Assembly: GCA_018798825.1 (NCBI GenBank)
Contig: CP076355.1
Coordinates: 712,001 to 776,000, forward strand
Source: Ochrobactrum sp. BTU1
GTDB taxonomy: Bacteria > Pseudomonadota > Alphaproteobacteria > Rhizobiales > Rhizobiaceae
Direction: 5' to 3'
Length of the DNA stretch: 64,000 nt
A model generated the notes under the pieces. It saw only the letters and a list, made by a program, of their open reading frames with translations, searched no databases and was not told where the DNA came from. Position numbers and translations under genes: made by a program. This document shows positions 9,310-43,645 of this stretch, one piece after another (within the stretch, counting starts at the first letter, position 1; each line of letters begins with the position of its first letter).

Positions 9310-10887
9310 TTATGCTTCCAGCCAGACTTTTTCGGCAAGGCGAGCACCCATCAGATTGAACATCGGATGCGTGGTCACGCCCTTGAGCTTCTTGGAGGTG
9401 GCGTCGAGATAGTCGCCAAACATTGGGATAAGCGCGCCGCCATCATTGCTGATCATGGCCTGCAATTCAGCGTAGATTTCCTTGCGCTTGGCCTGATCGA
9501 GCATTGCACGGGCCTCGAGCAGCTTGGCGTCGAAATCAGCGCTCTTCCAATGCGTATCGTTTTGTGAAGCGTTGGATGCATAAGCGATCGACAGAGCCTG
9601 ATCGGCAGTCGGGCGACCACCGCGATAAGACATGCAGAACGCCGCTTTCATCCAGACATTGTCCCAATATCCGTCTGCTGGTTCACGCTTGATATCAATC
9701 TCGATGCCCGACTTGACGGCGGCGGTGCGGAAGATCGCTGCTGCATCGACAGCGCCCGTGAAGGCGGCATCTGAGGCGGACAGCTGAATTTTCAGCGAAT
9801 CCATGCCCGCCTGCTTCAGATAGAACTTGGCCTTCTCCGGGTCATAAGCGCGTTGCGGCAGTGCTGCATCGAAGAACGGATCGGTGCTTGGGATCGGGTT
9901 GTCATTGCCCAGACGCCCATAGCCGCGCAAAGCGGTCTTGAGTAGCTGTTCGCGGTCAATGGCGTGCTTGACGGCGAGGCGGACGTTGTTGTCGGTAAAC
10001 GGCGCCTGCGTGCAATCCATCAGGAAAGAGAAATGCTGGCCGCCAGACGATTGAACGATGTTGAGGTTCGGATTGCGCTTCAACAGATCAACCGTCTTGA
10101 AGTCGAGCTGGTTGATGGCGTGAACCTGACCGGACATCATGGCGTTGGTACGGGCAGACACGTCATTGATTACGATGACTTCAACCGCATCGACCCAAGC
10201 CGAATTTGGCTTCCAGTAGCTCTCATTGCGCGTGAAACGCGAACGCACGCCCGGCTGGAAACGCTCGAAAACGAAAGGTCCGGTGCCAACCGGCTTGTTG
10301 AAATCGGTCCAGTCTTTAGGAACGACGAGGAAGTGATAATCGGACAGGATGTAAGGCAGATCAGCATTGCCGCTATTCAGCGTGATCTTGACCGTGCCAG
10401 CGTCAACCTTGACTACATCAGTGAATTCAGATGCGAGCGAACGCGCACCGGATGTGGTTTCGCCGCGGTGCAGATTGATCGAATAGACGACGTCGTCGGC
10501 GTCAAGCGTCTTGCCGTTATGGAAGGTTACGCCCTGACGAACCTTGAAGGTCCATTCCTTGGCGTCGGCAGATGGTTCCCAGCTTTCAAACAACTCAGGC
10601 ACAGCCTTGTTGTTGGCGTCGATTTCGACGAGACCGTTCATCAGCATGTAGGCCTGATTGACCGGAACCCAATCCTTCAGAAGGCGCGGATCGAAATTAT
10701 CGGTGGTGGAGCCGCCGCCAATACCAAGCTTGAGCACTCCGCCCTTCTTTGGCGCGCCATCGGCTGCAGCGGCTGCTGCCGAGGTGATCAAACCGCTCAT
10801 GCCAGTAGCGGCTAGAAGGCCAAGACCTGCGGCGCCTGTCATGAAGCTGCGGCGGGAGAGGTTAAAATCGTTTCGGTACCCAGTCAT
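9310..10887 (-). CDS. Peptide-type ABC transporter substrate-binding protein, Tat-exported
   Basis: 525 aa, extracellular solute-binding protein family 5. The N-terminus carries a twin-arginine signal (NLSRRSFMTGAAGLG, then an Ala-rich hydrophobic core ending near residue 40), so it is probably folded before export. Family landmarks include WTFKVRQGVTFHNGKTLDADDV and RLAVKHAIDREQL. It is the first gene of the operon (binding protein, B, C, DF, CocE hydrolase). AGGGG lies 6 nt before the ATG. Tat export is less usual than Sec export for this family. Confidence 0.92.
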   Translation of the reverse strand: MTGYRNDFNLSRRSFMTGAAGLGLLAATGMSGLITSAAAAAADGAPKKGGVLKLGIGGGSTTDNFDPRLLKDWVPVNQAYMLMNGLVEIDANNKAVPELFESWEPSADAKEWTFKVRQGVTFHNGKTLDADDVVYSINLHRGETTSGARSLASEFTDVVKVDAGTVKITLNSGNADLPYILSDYHFLVVPKDWTDFNKPVGTGPFVFERFQPGVRSRFTRNESYWKPNSAWVDAVEVIVINDVSARTNAMMSGQVHAINQLDFKTVDLLKRNPNLNIVQSSGGQHFSFLMDCTQAPFTDNNVRLAVKHAIDREQLLKTALRGYGRLGNDNPIPSTDPFFDAALPQRAYDPEKAKFYLKQAGMDSLKIQLSASDAAFTGAVDAAAIFRTAAVKSGIEIDIKREPADGYWDNVWMKAAFCMSYRGGRPTADQALSIAYASNASQNDTHWKSADFDAKLLEARAMLDQAKRKEIYAELQAMISNDGGALIPMFGDYLDATSKKLKGVTTHPMFNLMGARLAEKVWLEA

Positions 10888-10914
10888 GCGTTACCCCTGT
10901 TGAAGTCTTAGCTT

Positions 10915-11019
10915 GTATTTTATGCATAGCTAAATCGATTTTGCGGGTTGGACTAGCCCACACAGCTCGTAACTTTCAAGGGTTGTAAGAGGTTTTTATG
11001 ATATGACTTTTATGCATAC
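10915..11019. promoter_or_regulatory. Two TATGCATA palindromes in the divergent promoter region
   Basis: The 8-bp palindrome TATGCATA occurs at 10921-10928 and again at 11011-11018, each preceded by a T-run. They are exactly 90 bp apart, upstream of the divergent ABC operon (-) and the small membrane protein (+). Such spaced identical palindromes are typical operator pairs. No linked GntR-type regulator is present, so the binder is unknown. Confidence 0.35.
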
Positions 11020-11153
11020 CCCCATGCCAAATGTACCTCTTGGCTTTTATGGGAACAGGGATAAAGGAGCATTCCACAGAGACCTGCGGTGGCGCTTCTT
11101 CCACAAAAAAAGTTGCCTCTGCGATTGAAATTTTGCTGATCGTGGAGATCAAA

Positions 11154-11423
11154 ATGAGTTTGCCGGATATTGTTGGCTTGTTGGGTGCAGTTTTCTATCT
11201 TTCTGCTTATGCCCTGATTCAGCTACGTATTTACACGGTGGACGATGCCATCATTACCGTGCTCAATATTCTTGGCGGTGTAGCGCTGATTTATTCGCTC
11301 TCGTGGAACTTCAATCTGGGTTCCATTATCACGCAGGTGGCCTGGCTGGTGTTTACTGTCGTTGGTTACGTGCGGTTCCGTATGATGGCTCGTCGTCGTG
11401 CAGCTGTTATACCTGCCGAATGA
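11154..11423 (+). CDS. Small membrane protein, CBU_0592-like
   Basis: 89 aa from ATG 11154, chosen because GGAG lies 8 nt upstream; an in-frame codon at 11031 would add a hydrophilic, compositionally odd extension. The protein has three predicted hydrophobic helices (LPDIVGLLGAVFYLSAYALI, AIITVLNILGGVALIYSLS, ITQVAWLVFTVVGYVRF) and a short basic tail. It resembles the small CBU_0592-type membrane proteins of unknown function. It stands alone between the ABC operon and a converging LysR gene, 12 bp away. Confidence 0.65.
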   Translation: MSLPDIVGLLGAVFYLSAYALIQLRIYTVDDAIITVLNILGGVALIYSLSWNFNLGSIITQVAWLVFTVVGYVRFRMMARRRAAVIPAE

Positions 11424-14979: not shown

Positions 14980-15105
14980 CGCGGCTGGGTTTTGAAGAGC
15001 AGGGTCCTACGACACAGCAGTAAACAAGTATTCGGAGATCCAATTTCTTCCACGGCTAACCACATGAATTCATTTGCAAGTCGCACTTCAAACTAGAACC
15101 CACCC

Positions 15106-15126
15106 CCGTTATACACATTGTTTTAG
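15106..15126. repeat. Left copy of the direct repeat flanking the insertion element
   Basis: CCGTTATACACAT at 15106-15118 recurs exactly at 17630-17642. If the repeat is extended to 21 bp (15106-15126 against 17630-17650) the copies match at 16 of 21 positions, and they then abut both element ends exactly. This fits a decayed long target duplication, known for IS1202-type elements. Confidence 0.55.
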
Positions 15127-15183
15127 CAAGTTAAAGTTGCGACGTTCCCAGCAGATTACAGATGCGACAGGTGCTGACGTTCA

Positions 15184-15231
15184 GCCCCCATTCCGAGAGG
15201 CTGGTCGGGGTTGCAAACGAGGAATGGGGGC
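15184..15231. repeat. Perfect 11-bp inverted repeat inside the left end of the element
   Basis: GCCCCCATTCC (15184-15194) pairs with GGAATGGGGGC (15221-15231) around a 26-nt loop. There is no T-run, so it is not a simple terminator. It lies between the left terminal repeat and the passenger gene, where it could block read-through translation or transcription into the element, or act as a regulatory site. Confidence 0.5.
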
Positions 15232-15339
15232 GGGTGAATATCCACCTCTTCGGCTTTAGCTTTCTTAGTAGCAATTGTTCTGTCAGCAGTTGATACTCGG
15301 CTCACCTGCATCGGGCAGGAGAGGGATCCAAGTCGTACA

Positions 15340-16077
15340 ATGCTACCAAAAATCTGCCTGCAAGGTGACGTCGATATCGCTGCACTCTCACCACTGCTTC
15401 GCGGCATGCTGCTTGCAGTTGCCTATGCTCAGCGCGAGGGTGGCATCGGACTAACGGCAACCGGCGCGATGAACCGCAAGTTCGTGCATTGGGCTGCTGA
15501 GAACTTCCTCTGGCCCAGGTTCACAGCCAAAGACCTCTTCAGCATGCACAAGGTGCTCAATGAAAACGACATGCCACCACTTTGTGTTGTGCACGACCTG
15601 ACCCGTTATCTGAAGCTTCTTCGCCGCAGGAAAAATGTACTGCTGCCAACCAAACGTGGCCTGGAGTTTCTGGTCAATCCGCAAGCCTTCTTCGATCTGA
15701 TCGCCACCGATTATCTCTATTCGTATATTCATGCCACCGAACGTAAAGAGGCGATCCAGGCACGATTGCGTTGGTGGCGTATGTATCTCAATCTGCTCAA
15801 TATCAAGACCAGAGAAGGGTGTAAGCCGATGGACATTCTAAAGATACTCTATCCGGATATCGCTCATCTGTCCGACACTGAAATAACCGTCGATGCGTGG
15901 GACCTGAAATTCGAGCTTCGGTACGGTGTCCTGCGACGCTTATGCTGGCTCGGCCTGCTTTTTGAGGCAAGAGAAGGGCTCAGCTTGCTTGACGACGGAA
16001 CCTTCCACAAAACACCGCTTTGGACAGCTTGCCTGCAATTGGAGTCGGATATGCAAAGCGATATCGGCGTCCATTGA
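15340..16077 (+). CDS. Uncharacterised protein carried by the insertion element
   Basis: 245 aa, not recognised. The ATG at 15340 has AGGAGAGGG 15-23 nt upstream, which is far. The frame stays open back to ~15238 without a standard start and would encode a hydrophobic stretch, so the gene may be 5'-truncated. The protein is soluble and rich in Trp, Arg and Leu, with a conserved-looking block GGIGLTATGAMNRKFVHWAA (~residues 34-53), a lysine/arginine-rich segment LLRRRKNVLLPTKRG that looks like a winged-helix wing, and RWWRMYLNLL. It converges with the transposase inside the element repeats, so it is cargo. A DNA-binding accessory role is possible but unproven. Confidence 0.6.
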   Translation: MLPKICLQGDVDIAALSPLLRGMLLAVAYAQREGGIGLTATGAMNRKFVHWAAENFLWPRFTAKDLFSMHKVLNENDMPPLCVVHDLTRYLKLLRRRKNVLLPTKRGLEFLVNPQAFFDLIATDYLYSYIHATERKEAIQARLRWWRMYLNLLNIKTREGCKPMDILKILYPDIAHLSDTEITVDAWDLKFELRYGVLRRLCWLGLLFEAREGLSLLDDGTFHKTPLWTACLQLESDMQSDIGVH

Positions 16078-16083
16078 CGCCCT

Positions 16084-17516
16084 TTATTCCGGCGCTGGCT
16101 GTCTCAATAAAGCTTGTTCTCGCCGGGCAATGACGGCAGGGTCGTTCATGTAAGCTGTGCGCGATTTACGCTCTCGCTTCTGATAGCCATTCCCGACACT
16201 GCCGTCAGGTATACCAAACATATGGTTGGCCTGACCAGTACGACGCGGACCGCTTTTGCTGCGTTGCTGCTCCCGTCCCGCCTGCATCTCAGCGACGATC
16301 AACAGCATGTCATCCAGCCGTTTGTTCTCGACAACAGGTGAGCGATGAATGGAACGAAGCTTGTCGAATGTTGTATAGGGCAGGGTGTCCGTACCGTGCA
16401 TGATCTCCAGACGTCCGTCGGGATAGTCGCAGACAATGACCTTCTGCCGCGCAAGCCGCTTTGCAACTTCGGTCGGTTCCAGGATGAACAGCACTTTATC
16501 ATAGCGTAGTGTCAGTGTTTGTGACAGCGTTCGCACTTCCTTCCGGCACAGCGCACCATCAATATTCTCATGCGCTGCCAGCGGTCGATGCATGTCCTTG
16601 GGATTGCGTGGCTCCTTGCCAAAACGGGCATTGAAATCTGCAATATATTCCGGCGCATATGCATTGGCTGCTTCGATCGTATCGATGCCGCGCAGCCGCA
16701 ATTCCTTAACCAGACGATCCTGCAAAGTCCTGTTTGCCCGCTCAACACGGCCTTTGGCCTGTGGAGTATTGGCACAGATAATGTCGATGTTGAGCTCATA
16801 AAGTGCCCGACCAAACTGTGTCAGGCCGCTTGTTCGATCTTGCTTCGACGGATGAAGCGAACGAAAAACGCCGTGTTTGTCGCTATAGAAAGCTAGTGGT
16901 TTGCCCCATTGCTGGAGATATGCCTTCGTCGCATGAAAATAATCAAACGTGTTCTCTGAGCCCGCAAAACGCAAATGCAGGAGCTTGCCAGTGGCATCGT
17001 CGATATAAACGAGGAGGGCGCATTTGGGACCCGCTCCTCGAACCACCAATGATGCGAGCCGTCGATCTGTATCAGTTCACCAAAGCAATCACGCCGGCCG
17101 CGCGGTTGATGCAGTTGCCGCTTGCGTTCGCGACGTGATGTCCACAATCCCGCTGCTGTCATCCATTGCCGCAGCGTCTCCTTGCTGACTGAAAGCCGAT
17201 GGCGTTCAATCAGCTTCTCACAGGCCAGTGTCGGCCCAAAGTCCCGATAATACGTCCGTACAATATCCAGAATATCATTCCGGAAATCCTCGCCATAACG
17301 GCGATTGCTCGGACGACCGCGCTTGCCCGAAACAAGGCCCGCTGCACCAAGCCGATCAAATGCCTGTAACATCCGATGAATCTGACTACGACTGAGGCCA
17401 AGCAGCGCCGCTGCCTCCACCACACGAAGCTGATTATCTCTGATTTGCTGAACAGTCTTCAGCCGGTTGAGTTCTTTCTGCGACATCGTGATCAAACAAG
17501 ACATGACGGCTCCCAT
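16084..17516 (-). pseudogene. ISNCY/IS1202-type DDE transposase, frameshifted
   Basis: The transposase is read in two frames: 17516 to ~17030 (helix-turn-helix LRVVEAAALLGLSRSQIHRM, then first catalytic Asp in LIQIDGSHHWWFEER) and ~17045 to 16084 (LLVYIDDATG, second Asp in FYSDKHGVF, Glu in TPQAKGRVERANRTLQDRL). The frames join if one G is restored in the run complementary to 17030-17032: FEER is then followed by GPKCALLVY in one reading frame. The corrected product would be ~476 aa, normal for the group. The cause may be a real mutation, a sequencing error in a homopolymer, or less likely programmed frameshifting. As read, the element cannot make full-length transposase. Confidence 0.85.
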
Positions 17517-17629
17517 CCGCTGTTTGCTGCTGAAAGCCCAATCTTCCTTTCCGCGTTCGATTTGAAAAGGGCAAGAGAGGCAAAAATTGTCGCATCTCTA
17601 AATTGCCCATGTGTCGCATCTGTATATTG

Positions 17630-17650
17630 CCGTTATACACATCGATTGCA
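17630..17650. repeat. Right copy of the direct repeat flanking the insertion element
   Basis: CCGTTATACACAT at 17630-17642 is identical to 15106-15118. It begins immediately after the right terminal repeat (ends 17629) and runs up to the dif-like site. Confidence 0.55.
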
Positions 17651-17670
17651 TAACGTATGTTATGGAACTA
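17643..17670 (+). other. Candidate Xer recombination site (dif-like)
   Basis: A 28-bp sequence with canonical dif architecture: left arm CGATTGCATAA, 6-bp centre CGTATG, right arm TTATGGAACTA. The core CATAA-N6-TTATG is the same as in Escherichia coli dif (CATAA-TGTATA-TTATG). Aligned to E. coli dif from GCATAA onward, about 17 of 23 bases match. It is 13 bp outside the right end of the IS1202-type element; such elements are known to favour Xer sites. Whether it is the chromosomal dif, a relic, or chance is undecided. Confidence 0.45.
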
Positions 17671-18082: not shown

Positions 18083-19660
18083 GTGTTTCGCAAAACTCTA
18101 CTGACAAGCGTGTGTCTTCTGACACTGGTGGGAGCGGCATCGGCTGAGGTCGTTCTTAATCGCGGCAATGACACTGATCCAGCAACGCTCGATCATCATC
18201 GTACGTCCACCGTGTCTGAAGGCAACGTCCTTCGCGATTTGTATGATGGATTGACCATCCAGAACGCGAATGGTGAGGCCGTACCGGGTGTGGCGAAGTC
18301 ATGGGATATTTCGGAAGACGGTTTGGTCTACACTTTCCATCTGCGCGATAACGCGAAATGGTCAAATGGCGATCCGGTAACTGCTGGTGATTTCAGCTTC
18401 GCTTTTCACCGTCTGATGGACCCTAAGACAGCTGCTGGCTATGCGAGCATGTTGTTTGTGATCAAGAACGCGGAAGACGTTGCTGGTGGAAAAAAGCCGG
18501 TCGATGAGCTAGGGGTTGAAGCTGTAGACGATCACACGCTGAAGGTAACGCTTAACTCCCCTGCTCCTTATTTCCTCGAACTTCTGACGCACCAGACCGG
18601 CTTCCCGCTGCATAAGAAGAGCGTTGAAGAAAATGGCGACAAGTTCACGACACCTGGGAAAATGGTGACGAACGGCGCTTACGAACTGGTCAGCTTCACG
18701 CCGAACGACAAAATCGTCATGAAGAAGAACCCGAATTACTATGAAGCCGATCAGGTCAAGATCGATACCATCAACTGGATTCCATTCGAAGACCGCGCCA
18801 GCTGCATGCGACGTTTCGAGGCCAAGGAAGTTCAGGTCTGCTCGGACGTTCCTGCCGAACAGATGGATTATGTGAAGAAGAACCTCGCCAACGAATTCCG
18901 AATGGCACCTTATCTCGGCGTTTATTATTTGCCGGTCAAAGGCAAGACTGCTGACAGCAAGCTGAAAGATCCGCGCGTTCGTCAGGCTCTTTCCATGGCG
19001 ATCGACCGTGATTTCATTGCCGATCAGGTCTGGCAGGGCACCATGCTCCCAGGTTATTCGCTGGTTCCTCCAGGTATCAACCACTACGTCAAGGATGCGC
19101 CTAAACTCGACTATTCCGACGACATGTTGGATCGTGAAGACAAGGCCAAGGAGCTGTTGAAGGAAGCAGGCGTTGAGCCAAACACGCTTTCGATTGAGCT
19201 GCTCTACAACACATCTGAAAACAACAAGAACACGATGGCAGCAATTGCCGATCAGCTTGGCAATATCGGTGTGAAGGCAACGCTCAACGAAACCGAAGGC
19301 GCTACCTACTTCAACTTCCTGCGTGAAGACGGTCCGTTCGATATCGCACGCGCTGGCTGGATCGGCGATTACAACGATCCGCAGAACTTCCTTTACATTG
19401 CCCAGAGCGATGTCAGCTTCAATTATTCCAAGGTTAAAAACCCGGAATACGATGCGAAGATGGCTGAAGCAGCGAAGATCCTTGATCTGGATGCCCGCGC
19501 CAAGGTTCTGGCTGAAGCCGAGCAGCTCAAGCTCGATGACATGAGCAATATTCCTATCCTTTATTATTCCTCGCGCGCTCTTGTGTCTGACAAGATCGAT
19601 GGCTGGAACGACAACCTTATGGACAGCCACAAAACCCGCTGGCTTTCGTTCAAACAGTAA
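18083..19660 (+). CDS. oppA: Oligopeptide ABC transporter substrate-binding protein, first paralogue
   Basis: 525 aa, solute-binding protein family 5. GTG start at 18083, 6 nt after a near-perfect AGGAGGGG. Sec signal peptide with cleavage after ASA (~residue 21); no lipobox Cys, so a free periplasmic protein. OppA landmarks include RGNDTDPATLDHHRTSTVSE, KWSNGDPVTAGDFSFAFHRL and RVRQALSMAIDRDF. A strong terminator follows its stop, then a second paralogue of identical length. Binds peptides and hands them to OppBC. The specific ligand is unknown. Confidence 0.92.
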   Translation: MFRKTLLTSVCLLTLVGAASAEVVLNRGNDTDPATLDHHRTSTVSEGNVLRDLYDGLTIQNANGEAVPGVAKSWDISEDGLVYTFHLRDNAKWSNGDPVTAGDFSFAFHRLMDPKTAAGYASMLFVIKNAEDVAGGKKPVDELGVEAVDDHTLKVTLNSPAPYFLELLTHQTGFPLHKKSVEENGDKFTTPGKMVTNGAYELVSFTPNDKIVMKKNPNYYEADQVKIDTINWIPFEDRASCMRRFEAKEVQVCSDVPAEQMDYVKKNLANEFRMAPYLGVYYLPVKGKTADSKLKDPRVRQALSMAIDRDFIADQVWQGTMLPGYSLVPPGINHYVKDAPKLDYSDDMLDREDKAKELLKEAGVEPNTLSIELLYNTSENNKNTMAAIADQLGNIGVKATLNETEGATYFNFLREDGPFDIARAGWIGDYNDPQNFLYIAQSDVSFNYSKVKNPEYDAKMAEAAKILDLDARAKVLAEAEQLKLDDMSNIPILYYSSRALVSDKIDGWNDNLMDSHKTRWLSFKQ

Positions 19661-19671
19661 ATTTTCAGTTC

Positions 19672-19701
19672 GGGCTGTGCCTTTCGGCGCAGCCCCTTTT
19701 T
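19672..19701 (+). terminator. Intrinsic terminator / attenuator between the two oppA genes
   Basis: Stem GGGCTGTGCC (19672-19681) and GGCGCAGCCC (19686-19695), one G-U pair, loop TTTC, followed by CTTTTTCTTT. It is inside the operon, so partial termination would give more of the first binding protein than of the downstream genes. Confidence 0.85.
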
Positions 19702-19777
19702 CTTTCGACCTGGGAGGGTCGGAGGGTCCCTCTTTTCATGGGGACAGATATTTTTTAAGACTTATGGGAGTTTCACG

Positions 19778-21355
19778 ATGGTTCGCGAAATTTTATTGGC
19801 AGGCGTTTGCCTGATTTCGCTTGGCAGCGCCGCGTCTGCTGCAATTTTGCTTAACCGTGGCAATGATATGGATCCTTCAACGCTGGATCAGCAGCTCACC
19901 ACTACAGTTCAGGAAGACCGCGTTTTAAAAGATCTTTATGAGGGACTGGTCGCGCAGGATAGCCACGGCAGAGCAGTTCCCGGTGCGGCGACATCATGGG
20001 AAATTTCACCCGATGGCCTCACCTATACATTTCATATGCGCGACAATGCAAAATGGTCGAATGGCGATCCTGTAACGGCAGGCGATTTCGAGTTTTCATT
20101 TCGCCGCTTGATGGACCCTAAGACGGCTGCGGGCTACGCTAGTGTCTTTTATTCAATCAAGAACTCCGAGCAGATCGCGACGGGTCATATGTATGTCGAT
20201 CAGCTTGGCGTGAAAGCACTGGACGACAAAACGCTCCAGATCACGCTCAACGCGCCTACTCCATATTTCATTGAATTATTGACCCACAACACCGGATTTC
20301 CGGTCAATCCGAAAGCCGAAAAGGAATTCGGGTCAAAGTTTAGCCAGCCGGACCACATGGTCAGCAATGGCGCTTATGAGCTTGTCAGTTTCAATCCGAA
20401 CGACAAGATCGTTATGAAGAAGAATCCCTATTATTGGGATGCGGAGCATGTTCAGATTGATCAGGTAAACTGGATACCGTTTCAGGATCGCTCCAGCTGT
20501 ATGCGCCGGTTTGAGGCGAAAGAAGTTGATATCTGCTCTGATGTTGCCGCTGAACAGATGGACTATGTGAAACAGAACCTCGGTAAATGGTTTCATCAGG
20601 CACCGCTGCTGGGTATTTATTACATCGACATCAAAGGTGAGCCTTCCAGCAAGTTGCGCGACCGTCGTGTCAGACAAGCCATTGGAATGACGATTGATCG
20701 TGATTTTCTGGCACAGGAAGTCTGGCGCGGTACAATGCTTCCTGCCAGCTCGATGGTGCCTCCCGGAATCAATAATTACGTCAAAGACGGACCGCAGCTA
20801 AGCTACGCCAAAGAAGACATTCTTGATCGCGAAGACAAGGCAAAAGAGCTGTTGGCAGATGCCGGTGTCACACCTGGCAGCCTGTCGATAGTGCTGAGAT
20901 ATAGCACGTCGGAAAATCACAAGAACACGATGGCAGCGATTGCCGACATGCTCAAGGATATTGGTATCAATGCCACGCTCGACGAAGTCGATGGCACGAC
21001 CTATTTCAATTATCTTGAGCAGAAAGGCATGTTTGATATCGCCCGCGATGGCTGGGTTGGGGATTATAATGATCCGAACTCGTTTCTGTCACTCTTCACG
21101 AGCGACAGCTACTTCAATTACGCGCAATGGTCGAACAAGGACTATGACGCACTGATCATGAAATCAGCCATCACAGCAGATTTGGGTGAACGGGCGAAAA
21201 TCCTCACCAACGCAGAGAAGATTTTGCTTCAAGACGGGGCTGCTATTCCTCTGCTCTACTATTCATCTACCGCATTGGTTGCCGACAAGGTCAAAGGCTA
21301 CGACGACAACCTGATGAATTCGCACGCCACACACTGGCTGTCGATAAAAGGCTAA
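19778..21355 (+). CDS. Oligopeptide ABC transporter substrate-binding protein, second paralogue
   Basis: 525 aa, same length as the upstream OppA and clearly paralogous throughout (for example RGNDMDPSTLDQQLTTTVQE against RGNDTDPATLDHHRTSTVSE, and a shared SSCMRRFEAKEV block). Sec signal peptide with cleavage after ASA near residue 21. TATGGGAG precedes the ATG. Tandem duplication with divergence suggests two binding proteins of different specificity sharing one OppBC-DF core. It lies after the terminator, so it is probably made at a lower level. Confidence 0.92.
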   Translation: MVREILLAGVCLISLGSAASAAILLNRGNDMDPSTLDQQLTTTVQEDRVLKDLYEGLVAQDSHGRAVPGAATSWEISPDGLTYTFHMRDNAKWSNGDPVTAGDFEFSFRRLMDPKTAAGYASVFYSIKNSEQIATGHMYVDQLGVKALDDKTLQITLNAPTPYFIELLTHNTGFPVNPKAEKEFGSKFSQPDHMVSNGAYELVSFNPNDKIVMKKNPYYWDAEHVQIDQVNWIPFQDRSSCMRRFEAKEVDICSDVAAEQMDYVKQNLGKWFHQAPLLGIYYIDIKGEPSSKLRDRRVRQAIGMTIDRDFLAQEVWRGTMLPASSMVPPGINNYVKDGPQLSYAKEDILDREDKAKELLADAGVTPGSLSIVLRYSTSENHKNTMAAIADMLKDIGINATLDEVDGTTYFNYLEQKGMFDIARDGWVGDYNDPNSFLSLFTSDSYFNYAQWSNKDYDALIMKSAITADLGERAKILTNAEKILLQDGAAIPLLYYSSTALVADKVKGYDDNLMNSHATHWLSIKG

Positions 21356-41089: not shown

Positions 41090-43645
41090 ATGCGTAATTT
41101 GAGAGAAAATCTTCCCCATACAGATGGAAATCGTGCAGAGTCTGCTCCAGAGCAGAAGCCGCAGCGCGACCCGTTGGGAGCGCATTCGCCAAATTCGGAC
41201 GGGACGTGGAAATCGTATTTTTCACTCGGTGCGAATGTGCGTTTTACCCGCACGCCAGAGATTGATCTGGTGCGTCGTCGCGGTGAAGATCTGCCGGATA
41301 TCAATGGTCGTGCGAAGCCTGCAGAGGTGGAAGCTGATCATGCTCCGGTCGAGATCGAAAAAGTTGCGGAAGCTCAGCCAATGGCTGTTGCTGCTCTTCA
41401 GCAGTCCGTTTCACAGAATATGGTTCGCACACCCGTCGCGCCCGTGCCGCCTGTTCTGACGACCGTACCAGCCGAAACCGTAGTCCAGCCTGCGGAAGTA
41501 GCGCCTGTTTTGGCTGCCCAATCGATTGATGTTCAGCCTGTAGCGAATGTAGCCGCAGCTATCTCGGCATTCTCACATTTGTCGGATTTTGCTTTTTGGG
41601 AAAGCTTTGATTTTGATGCCGTGCCAGTTCAGTCTGTTGCCGTTATTACAGAAGTTGAAGAGGTTGAAGAAGTTGCAACGCCAAAGCGTGCTGCGCCGAC
41701 TGTTGAATCGATCATCGCACAGTTCCGCACGGTTGAATGGAACAAGGGTAAGTCTCAGGAGGCTCCTGCTGCTGTCGTAGAACAGCCTGCTCCGGTTGCT
41801 GAAGTTGCTCATCCAGACCAGACTGCTCCAGCTCCACAGCCAGTTGCTATACCCGTTGCAGAAGTGGTGATTGAATCACCTCGTGCGCTTATCGAAGAGG
41901 CTGCACCTCAGGCACCTGTCGAAGTCGTCACTGATGTTGCTGCTGAAGCAACGGAAGATCAAGGCGTGCTTACTGCCGCTGAAGCAGAAGAGCATGTGGT
42001 CGAGGACGTTGTGGCTCCTGAACCTGTTGCAGAAATGTCAAAGGTTGAAGCCCCTACGAAGACAGCCCCTTCAATCGCTCTTTATCAGCCGCAGCCCCTC
42101 CCCCGGACAGAAGCTGTCGTCATGCATGGCGACTATGAATTTCCGCCGCGTGACCTGCTGCAGGAACCGCCTTCGCTCGATGGCAATGTCATCACGCAGG
42201 AAATGCTTGAGCGCAGTGCTGGCCTTCTCGAAAGCGTGCTTGAAGACTTCGGTGTGCGTGGTGAAATCATCCATGTTCGTCCTGGCCCTGTCGTCACACT
42301 CTATGAGTTTGAACCAGCTCCCGGCGTTAAGTCGTCCCGCGTGATAGGTCTTGCTGATGATATTGCGCGTTCGATGTCGGCACTCTCTGCACGTGTTGCC
42401 GTTGTTCCGGGGCGTAACGTCATTGGCATCGAACTACCAAATGCCAATCGCGAGACCGTCTATCTGCGCGAAATGATTGACTCCCGCACCTTCGAATCCT
42501 CGAACTACCGCCTGCCGCTTTGTCTGGGCAAAGGCATCGGTGGTGAGCCGATCATCGCAGAACTTGCGAAGATGCCTCACCTGCTCGTAGCAGGCACCAC
42601 CGGTTCGGGTAAGTCTGTCGCCATCAATACGATGATTCTGTCGCTCCTCTACCGCTTCAAACCGGAAGAATGCCGCCTTATCATGGTCGATCCGAAGATG
42701 CTGGAACTCTCCATCTATGATGGCATTCCGCACCTGCTGACGCCAGTTGTGACCGATCCGAAGAAGGCCGTTGTGGCTCTGAAATGGGCCGTGCGCGAAA
42801 TGGAAGACCGCTATCGCAAGATGGCACGTCTGGGCGTTCGCAACATCGAAGGCTTCAATCAGCGTGCAGCGTCTGCAAAGGGCAAAGGCGAAACCGTCAT
42901 GTGCACGGTGCAGTCCGGCTTTGACAAGGAAACCGGCGAAGCAACCTATGTTCAGGAAGAACTCGACCTGACGCCAATGCCATATATCGTCGTGATTATT
43001 GACGAAATGGCCGACCTGATGATGGTTGCCGGCAAGGACATTGAAGGTGCTGTACAACGTCTTGCACAGATGGCGCGTGCTGCTGGTATCCACCTTATCA
43101 TGGCAACGCAGCGTCCTTCTGTTGACGTTATCACCGGTACGATCAAGGCTAACTTCCCGACCCGTATTTCGTTCCAGGTCACGTCTAAGATCGACAGCCG
43201 TACTATTCTTGGTGAAATGGGTGCAGAACAGCTTCTCGGGCAGGGCGATATGCTGCATATGGCCGGCGGTGGCCGCATTGTTCGCGTCCATGGACCATTC
43301 GTTTCGGATGAAGAAGTTGAAAAGGTCGTCAATCATCTGAAAGAACAGGGTCGTCCTGATTATCTGGCGACTGTCACCGAAGACGAGGAAGATGAAGATG
43401 CCGTGCAGGACACTGCAGTCTTCGATGCTTCGGCCATGGCTTCGGAAGACAGTGACGATGTCTATGAACAGGCTGTGAAGGTTGTTTTGCGTGATAAGAA
43501 GTGCTCGACTTCTTACATCCAGCGTCGCCTCGGCATTGGTTACAACCGCGCGGCTTCACTTGTCGAGCGTATGGAACAGGAAGGCCTTGTCGGTGCGGCT
43601 AACCATGTTGGTAAGCGTGAAATCCTCACTGGCAACCGCGATTAA
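41090..43645 (+). CDS. ftsK: FtsK/SpoIIIE-type DNA translocase without N-terminal membrane helices
   Basis: 851 aa. Residues 1-~340 are low-complexity, rich in Pro, Ala, Val and Glu, with no hydrophobic helix, unlike typical FtsK whose first ~200 residues have four membrane segments. Residues ~360-760 are the RecA-like motor: Walker A GTTGSGKS at 502-509, Walker [12 protein letters not shown] near 635, and [13 protein letters not shown]. The C-terminal ~65 residues (after a short acidic linker) are the DNA-reading gamma winged helix ([19 protein letters not shown]). Pumps DNA toward dif and activates XerCD at division. Rhizobial genomes often carry a second, membrane FtsK elsewhere; this could be the soluble paralogue. 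Confidence 0.9.

Follow-up and report, generated by a model that had tools for sequence, protein, structure and literature searches.

The genome of Ochrobactrum sp. BTU1 comprises 5,879,036 bp in four contigs, C1 to C4, of 2.37, 1.66, 1.00 and 0.84 Mb, respectively. The stretch of DNA analysed here, referred to as the window, spans 64 kb of C2 (positions 712001-776000 of a total of 1,663,974 bp). A transposon of the IS1202 family lies next to a 28-bp sequence resembling dif, the target of the Xer recombinases, and the remains of other mobile elements adjoin the transposon on its far side (Table 1). Right of the 28-mer, window positions 18083-21355 hold a tandem pair of similar solute-binding protein genes, the first of family 5, and homologues follow dif in many relatives.

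Table 1 Features of the C2 window and their coordinates.
Feature	Position in window	Strand	Remarks
IS30-family remnant, dif-proximal end	15070..15104		35 bp; identical to the IS30 ends of C3 and C4
CCGTTATA	15106..15113		same sequence as the element's right end; probably left by an earlier IS1202-type copy
Target duplication CACAT, left copy	15114..15118		5 bp
ISRel10-like IS1202-family transposon	15119..17637	-	2519 bp; the end at which the transposase starts faces dif
Passenger ORF	15340..16077	+	245 aa
Transposase gene, ISNCY/IS1202 type	16084..17516	-	frame shift giving overlapping frames 16893-17516 and 16084-17049
Target duplication CACAT, right copy	17638..17642		5 bp; abuts the XerC arm
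Very probable dif site	17643..17670	+	XerC arm 17643-17653 CGATTGCATAA, spacer 17654-17659, XerD arm 17660-17670 TTATGGAACTA
FtsK domain	42464-43123		C2:754464-755123; ~25 kb from the C2 dif

The 28-mer, CGATTGCATAA-cgtatg-TTATGGAACTA, consists of two inverse 11-bp arms separated by a 6-bp spacer and matches the consensus of the clade. The initial annotation had pointed out this dif-like sequence immediately after a direct repeat, and it is present as described. Compared with E. coli dif, the count of identical bases is 16/23 from GCATAA on and 17/28 overall; the initial annotation had estimated about 17 of 23 over the former part. The 28-mer does not match the E. coli arm TTATGTTAA, which counts against the explanation favoured below; it conforms to the alphaproteobacterial variant. 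The pattern GCATAA-N6-TTATG occurs exactly once in the window. When one mismatch is tolerated, shuffled windows contain 0.88 occurrences on average, and two or more in 26 of 100 shuffles; thus, the window by itself is not decisive for dif. This frequency speaks for reading the 28-mer as an inverted repeat that arose by chance next to an ordinary insertion sequence, and so does an exact core match at C1:540694 that is clearly no dif. That reading is very unlikely. It is contradicted by the conservation within the genus, where CATAA-N6-TTATGGAAC was found in 35/35 genomes, with 1-5 occurrences per genome, and the backward pattern in 0/35. In a sample of 101 genomes of the order, BTU1 included, the same pattern was found in 38, with one match to the backward control. 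Its absence from the other 63 counts against the favoured explanation and indicates that the order does not share this exact form throughout.

For B. melitensis, Carnoy and Roten (2009; PMC2731167) list two dif sites, TAATCGCATAAGATAGATTATGGAACTG and AAATCAGATAATATGTATTATGGAACAT, one for each chromosome; for A. tumefaciens they list TAATCGCATAAGATATATTATGGAACTT. The arm TTATGGAAC is common to these published sites and BTU1, and the comparison with Brucella proposed in the initial annotation shows that the 28-mer fits the published Brucella sequences. The C1 dif of BTU1 is identical to that of B. melitensis chromosome I at 23/28 positions and the C2 dif to that of A. tumefaciens at 21/28, whereas the C2 spacer CGTATG and XerC arm CGATTGCATAA differ from the Brucella and Agrobacterium sites given in that source. 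The part of it consulted does not mention transposons next to dif. The C4 dif (C4:476826-476853) is of the B. melitensis chromosome II type (25/28) and the C2 dif is of another type (17/28); dif types look as if they had been moving between replicons. The right flank of the C2 site, including the 28-mer, is conserved over ~2 kb in two relatives (98% in G014 and 95% in G015), neither of which yielded a match to the IS1202-type transposase of BTU1; this agrees with the conservation in relatives without the insertion that had been named as support.

A dif site occurs on most circular replicons. GC skew within the window was uninformative; hence the whole replicons were sampled at 20 stretches of 20 kb each. 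On C2, the skew is positive in 9/9 samples before the site and negative in 11/11 after it, which is the switch that the initial annotation had sought at this point. The corresponding values are 10/10 and 9/10 on C1, 10/11 and 7/9 on C3, and 10/12 and 6/8 on C4, and the imperfect switch on these three replicons counts against the favoured explanation. The motif GGGNAGGG, described as FtsK-orienting in the texts consulted (PMC12153318 and PMC13342612), reverses its polarity at the same sites. Forward to reverse counts change from 11:2 before dif to 4:13 after it on C2, the polar bias also proposed for examination, from 16:0 to 5:17 on C1, from 13:4 to 0:14 on C3 and from 14:5 to 1:10 on C4. Within the window the counts are 5:0 left of dif and 3:7 right of it. 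The repC gene lies near a contig end on C2, C3 and C4, and the fraction of the circle that separates it from dif is 0.441, 0.538 and 0.539, respectively; repC distances cover these three replicons, and on C1 dif lies at 46% of the contig. The C2 site therefore combines a skew switch, convergence of FtsK-orienting motifs and a position approximately opposite the origin. With the switch of skew and of GGGNAGGG at the site, and with all four element copies described below adjoining a dif-type site, a chance inverted repeat becomes exceedingly improbable, and it was rejected on the genus conservation and the skew switch.

The initial annotation placed FtsK 23 kb from the site, and an FtsK domain is encoded ~25 kb away. 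The gene on C2 is the second with this domain besides one on C1, where there is also a third, weak match. The two best matches to Xer-type recombinases, both on C1, score 306 and 278 bits, under the curated XerC cut-off of 335, which counts against the favoured explanation. The earlier suggestion of a chromosomal dif thus agrees with the skew switch, the motif reversal, the distance of 0.44 of the circle from repC and the published consensus, and the 28-mer is very probably the dif site of C2. Judging by its consensus, position and polarity, XerC and XerD, activated by FtsK, would resolve replicon dimers there.

The transposase of the neighbouring element is frame-shifted in the window and intact, at 477 aa, on C1, C3 and C4. 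The intact C3 copy scores 499 bits with the NCBIfam ISNCY profile (cut-off 250) and carries a Q seven residues past the motif E, a trait of the IS1202 family according to Harmer, Pong and Hall (2023; PMC10132070). A comparison of the transposase sequence with solved structures produced one match, with an E value of 0.97, which is not meaningful. The passenger ORF yielded no Pfam or NCBIfam match in a profile search; its protein search carries precomputed PF27146 and PF27262. The 149 relatives listed for it, of which the named ones are mostly rhizobial and annotated as hypothetical, extend down to 32-37% identity, and 15 columns are invariant in 52 aligned sequences.

The direct repeat that abuts the 28-mer, CCGTTATACACAT, is 13 bp long (15106-15118 and 17630-17642) and is composed of 8 bp equal to the right end of the element followed by the 5-bp target duplication. 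The element ends at 17637, and dif begins 5 bp outside it rather than the 13 bp given in the initial annotation. The assignment made there to the IS1202 type stands, on transposase family and on position at dif, but the long target duplication does not, because the repeat splits into 8 + 5 bp. On the C1-type replicon of G014, the homologous site is free of the element and reads AAACCGAA-CACTT-CGATTGCATAAGATAGATTATGGAAC behind an IS30 end, and the occupied site on BTU1 C1 reads AAACCGAA-CACAT-element-CACAT-CGATTGCATAAGATAGATTATGGAAC. This bears indirectly on the single-copy empty site that had been anticipated, since one copy of the 5-mer is present (CACTT vs CACAT). For C2, both of the nearest relatives have an IS30 end at this place, together with a 5-mer of another sequence.

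Elements of the IS1202 family are known to target dif (PMC10132070), and the BTU1 element sits where the family does so, in agreement with the proposal that dif had served as its target. Its nearest named relative is tISRel10 of the ISAjo2 subgroup. The subgroup as described there and the BTU1 element share the location 5 bp from the XerC arm, the single orientation and the 5-bp duplication, as well as an extra ORF, a length of ~2.5 kb and the Q seven residues past E. The subgroup is delimited by a duplication of 3-5 bp, a distance of 3-5 bp from the XerC arm and one orientation, all of which are found in BTU1 apart from the unlike 5-mers of C4. The ends are less typical. Members of the subgroup have imperfect terminal repeats of 24-26 bp with 5'-TGT/ACA-3' ends, whereas the outer 26 bp of the BTU1 element are identical at 16/26 positions, with TGT at the left end and ATA, in place of the ACA of the family, at the right. 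The right end TATA, as opposed to the TACA of the family, counts against the favoured explanation; related elements in G016 and Ensifer end in ACA. The BTU1 element also departs from the subgroup, as far as the latter is described in PMC10132070, by its presence at the dif of all four replicons, its TATA end and its layering with IS30. According to Table 8 of that paper, the targets of ISRel10, ISRel26 and ISMex6 carry TTATGGAAC; its authors regard them as resembling dif only loosely, or possibly as dif sites of a different consensus. What the consulted account left open is here tied to skew switches. For the ISAjo2 group, XerC on its arm was proposed there as the recognition cue, and the BTU1 transposase probably finds its site in the same manner, through XerC bound to the arm. 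The IS1202 insertion itself is characterized by a fixed side, orientation and distance, with dif left intact.

Four full copies of the element, one each on C1, C2, C3 and C4, match at least 2548 of the 2550 query bases at 99-100% identity; C3 also holds the only two fragments. All four copies are 5 bp from the XerC arm, in a single orientation to an intact dif. A like arrangement occurs on two Ochrobactrum plasmids and on an Ensifer adhaerens replicon, where the flanking 5-mers match in L011 and L012 and not in L010. In BTU1, CACAT flanks both sides of the element on C1, C2 and C3, and the C4 copy has CACAT on the left and CATAT on the right. A copy on C4 of G016 is flanked by TGTCG and CATCC. 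Since the 5-mers are unlike at these two C4 sites, not every copy is a simple insertion. On the left side of the C3 dif, at a distance of ~7-10 kb (C3:526074-528374), there are degraded IS1202-type and IS30-type fragments, which give the impression of older layers displaced from the site.

The copies might have spread over the four replicons by recombination between them, either by Xer at dif or by homologous exchange via shared IS30/IS1202 copies, instead of by four transpositions. Consistent with such exchange are CACATCGATTGCATAA, common to the dif side of C1, C2 and C3, a segment of 3.4 kb, including an IS30 element, common to C3 and C4, and the differing left and right 5-mers of C4 and of the G016 copy. 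It accords poorly with the clean CACAT duplication of C1 within a flank of its own, and with the right side of C4, which has its own 5-mer and its own XerC arm. Native dif flanks are biased at some positions (T at -1 in 20/29), and a common 5-mer is therefore weaker evidence than it appears. We lean against spread by recombination, though not strongly. The sequence CACATCGATTG on C1-C3 is suggestive of spread via Xer resolution of cointegrates, a route that C4 and the G016 copy fit poorly; together with the unlike 5-mers of these two it hints at exchange between replicons.

The second kind of element at the site belongs to the IS30 family. BTU1 has one full IS30 element on each of C3 and C4, and C4 carries a further partial one. 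The C3 transposase scores 276 bits (NCBIfam cut-off 80), and its closest named relatives, among the best 80 of 132, are from Brucella/Ochrobactrum, e.g. B. pituitosa and B. rhizosphaerae. At the C4 dif (L051, ~9457-11283), two IS30-family genes of 254 and 336 aa follow the IS1202-type element in tandem, with a 0.8-kb direct repeat. From part of the matches in the 35 genomes of the genus, 91 distinct sites were collected; two pattern matches with an unfitting XerC arm, L106 (BTU1 C1:540694) and L119, were dropped and 89 were classed by end sequence. An IS30-type end is found 13-14 bp from the XerC arm in 44/89 sites, an IS1202-type end at 5 bp in 12/89 (one at a contig edge), and neither in 33/89, some of which resemble decayed ends. 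Within 900 bp on the XerC side, IS30 transposase matches occur at 19/77 sites, IS1202-type matches at 8/77 and either at 27/77; on the XerD side, neither transposase was matched within 900 bp at any of the 89 sites. By genome, IS30 transposase matches occur in 22/35 and IS1202-type matches in 16/35. Most of the examined copies that are not directly at dif follow an element of the other family, and a few (L164, L165 and L180) have no dif nearby.

The sample was widened to the best 80 of the 132 relatives of the IS30 transposase, from Brucella, Rhizobium, Agrobacterium, Sinorhizobium/Ensifer, Mesorhizobium and others. In loci with at least 130 bp upstream, a dif was called where a stretch of these upstream 400 nt agreed at no fewer than 13 of 17 fixed positions. 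By this measure, 51/74 of the IS30 loci have a dif, compared with 70/2000 random 400-nt windows of the same loci. Where the proximal end was readable and the sequence long enough, dif lies at 13-15 bp in 50/70 loci, the spacing between the XerC arm and the ...CACC end being 13 bp in 28, 14 bp in 21 and 15 bp in one. The other 20 loci were inspected by eye: an IS1202-type left end intervenes in 11, L305 and L352 have IS30 13 bp from a lone XerC-like arm with no XerD arm, the dif-like site of L316 has an unusual spacer, and the remaining six showed nothing recognisable. Within the genus, L155 is a third IS30 site with a XerC-like arm only. A matched 3-bp duplication flanks 24 of the 57 IS30 loci with both ends read, whereas 2000 shufflings of the pairs gave 5.9 matches on average and never more than 13; the other 33, L155 included by eye, have none. 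The BTU1-type elements resemble the IS30 family in transposase, length (~1.1 kb), related inverted ends and 3-bp duplications, and differ in the location of their end, which is spaced 13-15 bp from a dif XerC arm and lies on one side of dif in every case. IS30 appears to be a second, unrelated family with a preference for dif. The literature searched, mostly open-access, contained no report of IS30 targeting dif; in the part of PMC12907356 consulted, ISAba125 of the IS30 family appears as a cargo element.

The junctions left of the C2 dif suggest several rounds of insertion. An earlier IS1202-type copy would have arrived first, IS30 would then have entered 8 bp inside the end of that copy, 13-14 bp from the XerC arm, and the present IS1202 copy would have inserted last, between the IS30 end and dif. 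The CCGTTATA beyond the left CACAT is probably a relic of the earlier copy, and an earlier round that left this 8-bp relic and a 5-mer would explain the 13-bp direct repeat. Such junctions recur elsewhere. At some loci IS30 interrupts an IS1202-type element 8 bp from its right terminus. L296, for example, reads ...TATATTGCCG / IS30 / CCGTTATA-5 bp-XerC arm, and the IS1202-type transposase that lies behind looks intact. An IS1202-type transposase starts just behind the far end of IS30 in 7/42 dif-adjacent loci with both ends read (L296, L329, L336, L339, L343, L344 and L346), and further loci show only the end sequence. We are highly confident that the 28-mer is the C2 dif and that an ISRel10-like IS1202 insertion stands beside it, as on all four replicons, over older IS1202/IS30 layers.

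Two accounts of the IS30 preference may be considered. In the first, IS1202-type elements, at 5 bp, and IS30-type elements, at 13 bp, have acquired independently of each other a preference for the XerC half-site of dif, with XerC on its arm as the probable cue, and IS30 perhaps needs this half-site only; dif may also be a place where the host resolves cointegrates of these transposases, and would so spread an element to all replicons of a cell. In the second, IS30-type elements recognise not dif but the right terminus of IS1202-type elements, whose location at dif is incidental. The latter gains from the 7/42 loci with a transposase close behind IS30 and from positions -13 to -6, which read CNGYTAYA, resembling the IS1202 end, in the 56 genus sites with an IS end. 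At the 29 genus sites where no end was recognised, these positions hold 0.02-0.30 bits each. Against the second account are L312 (TGC), L315 (TTA), L319 (TCC) and L348 (ACC), where IS30 has matching 3-bp duplications at the usual distance from dif and no IS1202-type end is visible. Also against it are the G014 C1-type replicon and G007, where the sequence between the IS30 end and the arm looks native and is also present in BTU1 C1 and G027 without IS30, and the lone arms of L305 and L352. The three sites with an arm only fit recognition of XerC, but they are few. Junctions of IS30 within IS1202 ends are well documented, which adds weight to the second account and takes a little from the first. 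Targeting of IS1202 ends is, in our judgment, rather unlikely, and independent homing via XerC is put forward tentatively.

With these results, the TTATGGAAC targets that ISRel10-like elements use are linked to skew switches and to published dif sites, and IS30 is added as a second family with this apparent preference. For a transposon that homes on dif, the site is a common and apparently harmless landing pad that marks the terminus of each replicon; if both families home on it, dif would represent one safe address on every circular replicon. It may also serve as the resolution site for cointegrates of a transposase that lacks TnsA. If XerC is the bait, simple insertion sequences would have a protein-guided choice of target without accessory proteins of the Tn7 type.
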